DNA from: Verrucomicrobium sp.
Lineage (GTDB): Bacteria; Verrucomicrobiota; Verrucomicrobiia; Methylacidiphilales; GAS474
Length of the DNA: 64,000 bases
Direction: 5' to 3'
Assembly: GCA_028283855.1 (NCBI GenBank)
Contig: JAPWJX010000001.1
Span: forward strand, 62,001 to 126,000
Below the pieces are notes generated by a model. The model was not told where the DNA came from, did no database searches, and saw nothing but the letters and a program-made list of their open reading frames with translations. Shown here one piece after another: positions 17,363-20,117 of this stretch. Each line of letters opens with the position of its first letter. Within the stretch, counting starts at the first letter, position 1. The position numbers and the translations under genes are program-made.

Positions 17363-17444
17363 GGTTAAGGGTTATAGGAGGCCCGCCGGAAAGGCAATGG
17401 GATAGGGCTTGCGCGGCGGAAGGGAGGAAACGAACCTAGGCGTC

Positions 17445-18794
17445 TTGAGCACGCCTTCCGATCCCGCCGAGCGATTCGCCGCGCTGCGCGCCCGGCATCC
17501 GGAGCTGGTCTACGAGCGCTTCGAGATCGTGGAAGAAGCCGACGGCTGGCGCTTCGACTTCCATTTCACCCTGGCGAACGGGCCGCGCTTCCAGCCCTTC
17601 CTCTTCGTGCCGAAGAAGCCCGGCGCGCCGCCGCCGGACCGCGCGCTCCTGGAAAACCTCGCCTTCCACGCCGGCCTGGCCGAGTCGATCAGCTATTGGA
17701 AGGCGGCCTGCCCGCCGGTGTTGCGGATCGAGGCGGGAGACCTCTCCCCGGAGCAGACGGCGTGGTGGCGGGATCTTTTCTATCACGGCCTGGGCGAGTT
17801 CTTTTACCTCAACGGGCTGATCTCCGTCGTCGATCGAGCCTCGTTCGTTTCCTTTGCCGTGAAGGAGGGAGGCCCGGGCCCGATTGCCTGCCCGGCGGAG
17901 GGGAACCTGGTGCCCGTCGGCGGGGGAAAGGATTCCCTGGTCACCCTGGACCTCCTGGCCCCGTTCCACGCGGAGACCGACTGCTTCTTCCTCAATCCCT
18001 CCCGCGCGCGGGAGGAGGGGGCGGCCCTCTTCGGCTACGGGCCGGAGAAGACGATCGTCGCGCGGCGGCGGCTTGATCCGGCGCTCATGGAGCTGAACCG
18101 CGCCGGGTATTGGAACGGCCACACCCCGTTCTCCGCCCTCCTGGGCTTTTCCGCCGTCCTCGCCGCCGTGCTGTGGGGGAAGCGCCGCGTCGTCCTCTCC
18201 AACGAGGCCAGCGCGAGCGAGCCGACCGTCCCCGGCACGGAGATCAACCACCAGTATTCGAAGAGCTGGGATTACGAGCGGGCCTTCTCCGCCTACGTGG
18301 CCCGCTGGCTGACGCCTTCCGTCTCCTACTTCAGCCTGCTGCGCCCGTGGAACGAGCTGCAGATCGCCCGCCGCTTCGCGCGGGAGGAGCGGGCGCTTTC
18401 CGTCTTCCGCAGCTGCAACGTGGGGAGCGCCAAGGACCTGTGGTGCGGGGAGTGCCCGAAATGCCTCTTCGTCGACGTCCTGCTCTTGCCCTTCCTCTCC
18501 CATGAGCGCCGGGCCGCCGTCTTCGGCCCCGCCACGCCGCTGGACAAGCCCGCCCTCCTGCCGATCCTGGAGGAACTGGCGGGCGTCGCGCCGGTGAAGC
18601 CCTTCGAGTGCGTCGGCACGACGGAGGAGGTCCTGGCCGCCCTGGCCCTGGCCGGGGAGCGGCCGCCCCTTGCCGCCGCGTTCCTGGAAACGCACGCCGC
18701 CCGGCTGCCGGACCACGCCCTGGCGGAGGCCCTCCTTTCCGGCTTCCACGGGCCGCACCAAGTGCCCGATTCCTTTTTGCCGCTTTTGGGCTAG
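17445..18794 (+). CDS. murL: UDP-MurNAc-L-Ala-L-Glu epimerase
   Basis: The family, first shown in Xanthomonas, epimerises the terminal L-Glu of UDP-MurNAc-L-Ala-L-Glu to D-Glu using ATP, replacing glutamate racemase in peptidoglycan synthesis. Seen here: a PP-loop-like ATP site (PVGGGKDSLVTLDLL), a conserved SNEASASEPTVPGTEINHQYSKSW-type region, and four clustered cysteines around SCNVGSAKDLWCGECPKC. murD follows 12 bases later, the pairing expected for the MurD2-MurL route. The start is uncertain: TTG at 17445 or TTG at 17409; no ATG fits and the GGGAGG at 17421-17426 suits neither well. Length 449 or 461 residues. Confidence 0.85.
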   Translation: MSTPSDPAERFAALRARHPELVYERFEIVEEADGWRFDFHFTLANGPRFQPFLFVPKKPGAPPPDRALLENLAFHAGLAESISYWKAACPPVLRIEAGDLSPEQTAWWRDLFYHGLGEFFYLNGLISVVDRASFVSFAVKEGGPGPIACPAEGNLVPVGGGKDSLVTLDLLAPFHAETDCFFLNPSRAREEGAALFGYGPEKTIVARRRLDPALMELNRAGYWNGHTPFSALLGFSAVLAAVLWGKRRVVLSNEASASEPTVPGTEINHQYSKSWDYERAFSAYVARWLTPSVSYFSLLRPWNELQIARRFAREERALSVFRSCNVGSAKDLWCGECPKCLFVDVLLLPFLSHERRAAVFGPATPLDKPALLPILEELAGVAPVKPFECVGTTEEVLAALALAGERPPLAAAFLETHAARLPDHALAEALLSGFHGPHQVPDSFLPLLG

Positions 18795-18806
18795 AGTGAG
18801 AACTTC

Positions 18807-20117
18807 ATGGAACTGGCCGCCTTCCTCGCCCCGCAGAAGCTGCTCCTTTGGGGATTGGGCAAGGAAGGGCTCTCCAGCTACCGCTTCCTGCGCCGCCATT
18901 TCCCGCAGAAGCCGCTGGCCGTGGCCGACGCGCGGCCGGAGATCCTCCGGGAAGACCCGCAACTAGCCGCCGACCGCCACGTCTCCTTCCTGCCGCAGGG
19001 GGAGGTTCCCGCGCGGCTGGCCGAGTTCGATCTGGTGCTGAAGGCTCCCGGCGTCCCCATCGCCGAGTTCGACCTGAGCGGGCGCACGGAGCGGATCAGC
19101 GGCCAGGCCGACCTCTTCCTGCGCTTCGCGCCGGGACGGGTCGTCGGCGTCACGGGGACGAAGGGGAAGAGCACCACCTCCGCGCTTCTTCATCACCTGC
19201 TGCGGCCTTCCCAGGGGGCGGCGCTGCGGCTCGGCGGCAACTTCGGCATCCCGCTTTGGGACTTCATCGAGGAGCTGGAGCCGGGTTCCTGCACCGTGGC
19301 GGAGCTTTCCTCCTACCAGCTGGAGACGGTCCGCCACAGCCCGGCCATCGCCGTCTGGCTCAACCTCTACGAGGAGCACCTTAACTACCACCGCACCTTT
19401 GCCGCCTATGCCGCGGCGAAGGCGAACCTGGCCCGCTTCCTCTCGGCCGACGGGCACCTGGTTTATTGGGATGGCGATCCCCGTCTGGCGGAAGCCATGG
19501 CCGGATTGCCCCGCCGGGCGCAGCGCCACGCCTTCAACGGGGACAGCCCGTTCCCGTTCCGCCAGCCCGCCCGGCTGCCGGGACGGCACAACCGGCTCAA
19601 CGCCCTGGCCGCCCTCACGGCGGCGCGGCTGGTCGGGATCGACGAGGCGACCGTCCAGGACTCCCTGGACAGCTTCCAGAGCCTGCCCCACCGCCTCGAG
19701 TATCTGGGGGAAGCCGAAGGCGTCCGCTATTACAACGACTCCATCTCCACCGTGCCGGAGGCGACCCTGGCCGCGCTGGAAGCCCTGCCGGAAACCCGCA
19801 CCCTGATCGTGGGCGGGATGGACCGGGGGATCTCCTACGACGGGCTGGCCCGGGAGCTGGCCTCCGGTTCCCTGCGGCGGCTCATCCTCCTGCCGGACAC
19901 GGGAAAGCGGATCGCCGCCCTCCTGCAAAAGCAGGGGGCGCTCGGTTTCGACGTGCGGGAGGCGAAGGACCTGGAGGAGGCCGTGGCGCTGGCGCGGGAC
20001 GGGGCGGGGCCGGGGGAGGTCTGCCTCTTTTCCCCGGCGGCATCGAGCTACCACCGGTACCGGAACTTCGAGGAACGGGGGGAAGCCTTCCGCGCCCTGG
20101 TGCGGGCAAAGGCCTAG
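18807..20117 (+). CDS. murD: UDP-N-acetylmuramoyl-L-alanine-glutamate ligase, probably MurD2 type (L-Glu)
   Basis: 436 residues, the Mur-ligase length. ATP loop VGVTGTKGKSTTSALL near residue 112, the NLYEEHLNYH central block and the NDSISTVPEATLAAL and SPAASSYHRYRNFEERG C-terminal blocks are clear. MurD joins glutamate to UDP-MurNAc-L-Ala in the cytosol. Canonical MurD uses D-Glu and has a DHLDRH-type motif and a SPACAS-type end; the deviations here, together with the adjacent murL, point to the L-Glu-specific MurD2 form. The amino acid specificity is an inference from context. Confidence 0.9.
   Translation: MELAAFLAPQKLLLWGLGKEGLSSYRFLRRHFPQKPLAVADARPEILREDPQLAADRHVSFLPQGEVPARLAEFDLVLKAPGVPIAEFDLSGRTERISGQADLFLRFAPGRVVGVTGTKGKSTTSALLHHLLRPSQGAALRLGGNFGIPLWDFIEELEPGSCTVAELSSYQLETVRHSPAIAVWLNLYEEHLNYHRTFAAYAAAKANLARFLSADGHLVYWDGDPRLAEAMAGLPRRAQRHAFNGDSPFPFRQPARLPGRHNRLNALAALTAARLVGIDEATVQDSLDSFQSLPHRLEYLGEAEGVRYYNDSISTVPEATLAALEALPETRTLIVGGMDRGISYDGLARELASGSLRRLILLPDTGKRIAALLQKQGALGFDVREAKDLEEAVALARDGAGPGEVCLFSPAASSYHRYRNFEERGEAFRALVRAKA

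Follow-up and report, generated by a model that had tools for sequence, protein, structure and literature searches.

A MurL-MurD2 gene pair predicted to form the D-glutamate of peptidoglycan in a member of the Verrucomicrobiota

How does a bacterium in which no glutamate racemase is recognized supply D-glutamate to its peptidoglycan? The question is raised by a pair of adjacent genes in a 64,000-nucleotide stretch of Verrucomicrobium sp. DNA (assembly GCA_028283855.1, contig JAPWJX010000001.1, positions 62,001 to 126,000; hereafter, the window). A first-pass annotation of the window had assigned the pair to the MurL-MurD2 route, in which L-glutamate would be attached to the peptidoglycan precursor first and then flipped to the D form by the ATP-using epimerase MurL, making glutamate racemase unnecessary. 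This rare route has been described chiefly in Xanthomonas and related bacteria and in some actinobacteria; published work has demonstrated its reactions with the Xanthomonas enzymes and with orthologs from Micromonospora and Salinispora. The analysis presented here suggests that the pair very probably uses the MurL-MurD2 route to form D-glutamate during peptidoglycan synthesis; judged from its sequence, it is a well-supported example of this pathway, found in a lineage where it was not expected. The genes and the MurL motifs are located as follows:

17445..18794, + strand, MurL-type epimerase gene (NF041275, E 9.8e-75; 35.4% identity over 432 residues to the annotated X. sacchari MurL)
18807..20117, + strand, murD2, predicted L-glutamate–adding UDP-MurNAc-L-Ala ligase (TIGR01087, 317.4 bits; MurD2 side of the trees)
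17919..17936, + strand, PP-loop GGGKDS, predicted ATP site of MurL (residues 171-176 counted from 17409)
18414..18464, + strand, four-cysteine (Cys4) motif of MurL, C336-x9-C346-x2-C349-x2-C352, like the zinc site of QueC

The murL frame is open from 17409 to 18794 on the + strand and encodes 461 amino acids from the TTG at 17409, with a further TTG, taken as the start in the first-pass annotation, in frame at 17445; residues 1 to 13, counted from 17409, are the sole stretch of the structural model considered below with a predicted local distance difference test score (pLDDT) below 50. The murD2 frame (436 amino acids, ATG start) is intact and follows after a gap of 12 bp. When the murL product was compared to NCBIfam at E ≤ 1e-3, the only match was the MurL model NF041275 (251.7 bits, aligned over residues 52-455). 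With the GGGKDS loop, this bears out the proposal that an epimerase with an ATP PP-loop directly precedes a MurD. The neighboring product exceeds the TIGR01087 cut-off (317.4 compared to 211.95 bits) and is the only MurD over the cut-off in its own genome.

To place the pair among relatives, genome contigs were scanned with the window MurL as the query, and the best 80 of 319 relatives were kept as loci from named genomes. In 79 of them, a MurD match begins at most ~300 bases 3′ of the MurL match, so the adjacency of murL and murD is not due to chance. In the 80th locus (L130), the genome's only MurD (E ≤ 1e-40) apparently lies on the same contig as MurL.

The two kinds of MurD can be told apart at positions that govern the handedness of the added glutamate. 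According to a review, E197 and R358 of X. oryzae MurD2 matter for the use of L-glutamate, the E197D/R358K substitutions yield a D-glutamate enzyme, and K319T lets E. coli MurD accept L-glutamate (PMC8788868). We aligned the window MurD and its relatives with E. coli MurD and the annotated X. sacchari pair (NZ_CP010410.1), through which the X. oryzae MurL (XOO_1319) and MurD2 (XOO_1320) were compared. The corresponding codons in the window are the following:

19374..19376, + strand, codon of E190, equivalent to D182 of E. coli MurD and E197 of X. oryzae MurD2
19743..19745, + strand, codon of I313, equivalent to K319 of E. coli MurD
19824..19826, + strand, codon of R340, equivalent to K348 of E. 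coli MurD and R358 of X. oryzae MurD2

The window MurD thus has E/I/R where E. coli MurD has D/K/K (positions 182/319/348), which is identical to the annotated X. sacchari MurD2 and agrees with the earlier description of its motif set as nonstandard. The X. sacchari pair also resembles the window pair in its adjacent murL-murD order, and in the PP-loop and Cys4 motif of MurL. It differs in overall sequence (35.4% identity over 432 residues in MurL, 43.5% over 425 residues in MurD), in its host, that of the window belonging to the Verrucomicrobiota, and at positions 414/416, where the window MurD has S/Y rather than P/F.

The same residues recurred in 94 MurL-adjacent MurDs (92 distinct sequences, many of them close relatives): E182 in 93, I319 in all 93 readable sequences, and R348 in all 92 readable ones. 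The exception at position 182 was D in locus L026. Left out of this set were L020, which is the locus of the window, L130, with no MurD inside the locus, and L027, with none in its 2.4-kb locus. The MurD found elsewhere in the L130 genome (L231) has E/L/R. Three MurDs (L022, L107, and L171) were incomplete at some of the handedness columns; the full-length version of the first (L230) has E/I/R. Nearly all MurL-adjacent MurDs therefore carry isoleucine at the K319 position, where mutation to threonine permits the use of L-glutamate; isoleucine at this position is not mentioned in the available part of PMC8788868. In contrast, D/K/K is present in every one of 30 MurDs drawn from the order's sister families. 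MurI is over the cut-off in 27 of these 30 genomes; one more (G432) reaches 145.7 of the required 146.65 bits, and G415 and G437 have none.

The first-pass annotation had also called for a phylogeny. Two trees were built with the handedness columns removed; positions 414/416 were also removed from the first. In the first tree (56 MurDs, quick method, X. sacchari MurD2 included), one branch with 100% support in the Shimodaira-Hasegawa–like approximate likelihood ratio test (SH-aLRT) parts 38 MurD2-side rows, among them the window MurD, from 18 canonical rows. The row closest to the window MurD belongs to a congener (L019, 62% identity). A set of 11 rows, supported at 99%, unites the window MurD, the order's other MurD2s used in the tree, and X. 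sacchari MurD2, the last on a long branch. In the second tree (40 rows, careful method), from which the longest branches (X. sacchari, L026, L181, and E. coli) were left out by choice, the window MurD falls on the MurD2 side of a 23-versus-17-row split supported at 100/100. The window MurD thus groups with MurL-adjacent MurDs and not with canonical ones.

We next consider the genome to which the window belongs. No TIGR00067 (MurI) match was found in it at E ≤ 1e-3, while 10 of 14 control genomes gave matches in the same search, 8 of them above the cut-off. Neither a clustering of the window MurD with D-glutamate enzymes nor a functional murI thus emerged from the trees and the own-genome search. 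The genome encodes a single protein of the Asp/Glu_race family PF01177 (contig C3, 1417443-1418090; 98.2 bits). This protein is under every NCBIfam cut-off and most resembles racemases acting on cysteate and aspartate (CuyB, 122.7 of 190 bits; asp_race, 80.6 of 93.1; the aspartate/glutamate racemase PRK10200, 35.5 of 417), with TIGR00067 not among the models listed. Of two class IV aminotransferases, the one on C3 exceeds two branched-chain cut-offs but none for D-amino acids (219 of 277.45 bits for Dat); the other passes no cut-off and is nearest to PabC models. By family cut-offs, then, neither a glutamate racemase nor a D-amino-acid transaminase was found in this genome; dapF was not searched.

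The distribution of these genes across the order follows the same pattern. Among its 62 genomes, MurL is present in 15, which comprise all 13 of one family (f2) and 2 of the 3 from the window's own family (f1). The f1 genome without MurL (G392) is 82% complete and also has no MurD at E ≤ 1e-40. MurI is over the cut-off in 40 of the 62 genomes, none of which belongs to f1 or f2, which amounts to 40 of the 46 genomes of other families. No genome has both MurL and MurI; MurI is found in 40 of the 47 genomes lacking MurL, and 7 have neither (Fisher P = 1.8e-9 for the exclusion, calculated from raw counts uncorrected for kinship). MurD scores are also split, with 280 to 314 bits in f1 and f2 and 382 to 424 bits for full-length MurDs of other families. 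One f2 MurD (G401) is identical to that of Methylacidimicrobium cyclopophantes (L106), which assigns the order, Methylacidiphilales, to the Verrucomicrobiota.

Gene order separates the two systems as well. In all 30 sister-family loci the canonical murD adjoins mraY, with ftsW also in view in 22. The window pair differs: neither mraY nor ftsW was found anywhere in the 64-kb window, with the genome's own division and cell wall (dcw) cluster as the positive control. Since the order's MurL loci reached only ~1.5 kb 5′ of murL and extended little past murD, a wider look was taken at 8 relatives of 14 chosen, and, with the same control, no mraY or ftsW was found within 19 kb around murL-murD2 in any of these 8.

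In the wider scan, 54 of the 80 named loci are titled Ruminococcus; the rest are titled Bacteroidales or Bacteroidia, Clostridia, Clostridium, Oscillospiraceae, Bacillota, Methylacidimicrobium, and one delta proteobacterium metagenome-assembled genome (MAG). Counts of MurI and MurD cover 50 of these MurL genomes, comprising all 26 non-Ruminococcus ones and 24 of the 54 Ruminococcus ones. MurI was over the cut-off in one (G481) and matched at E 1e-3 in six, G481 included, and a single MurD (E ≤ 1e-40) was found in 44. Reviews place the pathway in Gamma- and Alphaproteobacteria and actinobacteria, and they also mention orthologs of low similarity from cyanobacteria, from a fungus, and from an amoeba (PMC8788868 and PMC5808125). 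Among the matches listed from the open-access literature, subscription papers not being covered, none places it in Verrucomicrobiota, Ruminococcus, or Bacteroidales.

A different explanation is that the window MurD is an ordinary D-glutamate ligase, that D-glutamate comes from the PF01177 racemase on C3, from a promiscuous DapF, or from a class IV aminotransferase, and that the MurL-like protein does something else. The genome does encode candidates of the first and last kinds, and DapF of Chlamydia, which is also a glutamate racemase, has been proposed as the D-glutamate source in MurI-less bacteria of the Planctomycetes-Verrucomicrobia-Chlamydiae (PVC) group (PMC5885031). The same authors guessed DapF for Xanthomonas too (PMC5885031), where it is MurL that has been demonstrated. 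For Verrucomicrobium spinosum, a MurI is on record (PMC4803751). We consider this explanation improbable, for all three handedness residues of the window MurD are of the MurD2 type, and the 13 f2 genomes, which have no PF01177 match at E ≤ 1e-3, all keep MurL and MurD. The C3 racemase was rejected as a D-glutamate source because it is cysteate/aspartate racemase–like and lies in a contig end of foreign composition. In tetranucleotide composition, the 10 kb at the end of C3 and the 15 kb at the start of contig C5 correlate with the window at r = 0.38 to 0.57 (0.47 to 0.57 for C5:1-15000), while other sampled 5-kb blocks give 0.79 to 0.94. The last 10 kb of C3 (L227, 10001-20000) hold the sole PF01177 racemase and a replication initiator–like protein, the latter read from its translation.

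The C5 end matters for a second alternative. The native dcw cluster on C3 comprises rsmH, ftsI, murE, murF, mraY, a LysM protein, ftsW, murC-murB, ddl, ftsQ, and ftsA (names read from translations); it contains no murD, and the LysM protein sits between mraY and ftsW. C5, however, opens with a murD truncated by the contig boundary, of which the N terminus remains, and mraY, murF, murE, and ftsI come next (L012, C5:1-15000; names partly read from translations). That the two routes coexist, with this fragment standing for a canonical dcw murD, is still less probable: two Bacteroidales MAGs with MurL do carry a canonical D/K/K MurD as well (L193 and L194), but C5:1-15000 deviates in composition and duplicates genes found on C3, and a congener on one contig (G078, 99% complete) has a single MurD at E ≤ 1e-40. 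The C5 murD fragment was accordingly rejected as native on tetranucleotide composition. The proteins encoded by C5:1-15000 presumably are Burkholderiales-like, and the C3 end and the C5 start likely represent misassembly or contamination.

Several observations weigh against assigning the window pair to the MurL-MurD2 route. The 251.7 bits of the window MurL are far from the curated NF041275 cut-off of 700 bits, which is reached in none of the 62 genomes of the order; the model is a Xanthomonadales MurL equivalog. Arginine at position 348 is not diagnostic alone, since the MurD of S. mutans, a D-glutamate enzyme, also has it (PMC8788868). Both trees raised long-branch warnings: in the first for X. 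sacchari, L026, L181, E. coli, and others, with E. coli meeting the MurD2 side, and in the second for L193/L194 compared to the MurD2 side. Completeness of the genome is 95.6%, which means that a murI may have been missed, and the murD N terminus on C5 exists, in foreign-looking sequence. In the congener G078, a PF01177 protein (152.3 bits) was found along with a weak, cysteate racemase–like TIGR00067 match (27.6 of 146.65 bits); the PF01177 protein passes the cysteate racemase (222.5 compared to 190 bits) and amino acid racemase (146.9 compared to 93.1 bits) cut-offs and fails that of glutamate racemase (28.8 of 146.65 bits). In this phylum, the absence of MurI is by itself hardly informative, since 242 of 387 Verrucomicrobiota genomes have no MurI match (E ≤ 1e-3) while MurL is found in just 10 of the 387. 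In addition to the one MurI over the cut-off, a second MurD match is present in 6 of the 50 named MurL genomes: it is canonical D/K/K in G461 and G464, divergent N/I/K in two MAGs titled uncultured Clostridium (G454, L232; G459, L233), and a C-terminal piece with K/K in G441 and G462. As completeness was not given for these 50 genomes, the absence of MurI from them may partly reflect gaps. With these points taken into account, the handedness residues, the trees, and the gene content together support the earlier proposal that L-glutamate would be added first and then epimerized.

The remaining question is what kind of enzyme MurL is. Reviews call its mechanism unclear for want of known domains (PMC8788868 and PMC5808125), and its discoverers proposed adenylation of the alpha-carboxylate (PMC8788868). 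No Pfam family matched the window MurL at E ≤ 1e-3; at E ≤ 1, DUF6395 was the only match (E 0.31, 11.4 of 25 bits). Two motifs are conserved across the family: in 99 aligned rows, G171, G172, G173, D175, and S176 of the PP-loop are present in all and K174 in 98, and each cysteine of the Cys4 motif is present in 98, with L026 lacking all four. No PDB sequence matched the window MurL at E ≤ 1, and a profile of 32 MurL sequences matched PP-loop enzymes only (TtuA, E 5.1e-4; MnmA, 0.92; others weaker).

We modeled MurL with AlphaFold2 from an alignment of 32 sequences (mean pLDDT, 93.0). In structure comparison with VIA-align, the top match was QatC (9y01_B; Z 19.0, 323 residues aligned, root mean square deviation of 3.8), followed by QueC (2pg3, Z 13.8; 3bl5, 13.2) and Cap9 (12.7); other PP-loop enzymes gave Z ≤ 8.4. 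MurL is predicted to share its fold with QueC, QatC, and Cap9, and it comes close to them in an SGGxDS-type loop and a C-x8/9-CxxCxxC motif: GGGKDS and C-x9-CxxCxxC of the window MurL are near variants of SGGQDS and C-x8-CxxCxxC of E. coli QueC. QueC carries out two ATP-dependent reactions on carboxylated deazaguanine, holds zinc through C(x)8CxxCxxC, and has an SGGxDS loop (PMC13329287); QatC, whose reaction is so far not known, binds zinc at a site of four cysteines and is extended at both its N and its C terminus (PMC13279940). The substrates differ, that of MurL presumably being a peptide carboxylate and that of QueC a deazaguanine. QueC adenylates its own substrate. The main texts of PMC13329287 and PMC13279940 do not mention MurL, and, judged by titles, none of the 5 papers in which both QueC and MurL occur deals with the two enzymes jointly.

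Several results speak against the link to QueC and QatC. The fold similarity comes from VIA-align; Foldseek alone gave no match at E ≤ 0.001 (best, TtuA at E 2.9e-3), comparison of the MurL profile to the single E. coli QueC sequence was weak (probability 4.6), PADLOC found no QatC match among 32 MurL members, and DUF6395, of function unknown, was touched by 30 of 32 relatives (best E 2.5e-4). The window MurL has no PF06508 (QueC) match at E ≤ 1, and 4 of 32 relatives have one (best E 0.079). The N-terminal domain alone (residues 1-159) did not retrieve QatC; its best match, a designed protein at Z 7.3, and those following at Z ≤ 6.5, mainly RNase H–like, are below the level of trust. A PADLOC Csn2 match (3 of 32 MurL members, best E 0.0078) was taken as chance.

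Overall, the predicted fold provides independent support for adenylation; sequence-level support for the QueC link is weak. The model suggests that MurL would be a QueC/QatC-like PP-loop adenylating enzyme. We lean toward the view that MurL is an offshoot of the QueC/QatC zinc PP-loop lineage in which a carboxylate-activating scaffold was reused for epimerization of a cell wall peptide. The glycine-rich loop of MurL would hold ATP, and the alpha-carboxylate of the newly added glutamate would be adenylated; the alpha-proton would then turn acidic and be replaced from the opposite face, and hydrolysis of the adenylate would release AMP and the D-product. The formation of AMP by MurL fits adenylation of the alpha-carboxylate, as do the QueC-like PP-loop fold and cysteine motif.

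Two further observations concern MurL-like proteins. Locus L026 (G216) holds a divergent MurL-MurD pair, its MurL without the Cys4 motif and its MurD combining D182 with I319 and R348. In Pseudonocardia, a MurL-like protein (31 to 33% identity) is encoded on three plasmids (hits H2-H4, L191); in the 9-kb region examined, that of H2, no MurD is listed. The protein is possibly another peptide epimerase. No MurL-like stretch was confirmed among the 264 on viral contigs that agreed with one or the other of two patterns.

These results offer MurL-MurD2 as a D-glutamate source for one MurI-less PVC lineage, where promiscuous DapF was the published proposal. They extend the apparent range of the pathway beyond the groups listed in reviews, adding Verrucomicrobiota, Ruminococcus, Bacteroidales, and Clostridia; this is relevant to using the pathway as a target for narrow-spectrum drugs. 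MurL gains a testable fold and chemistry, with a predicted scaffold otherwise employed in queuosine precursor synthesis and anti-phage defense. If MurL does descend from the QueC/QatC lineage as proposed, it may be the nearest relative of QatC with a defined biochemistry, and the route would be widespread and overlooked in Ruminococcus, Bacteroidales, and verrucomicrobial methanotrophs.

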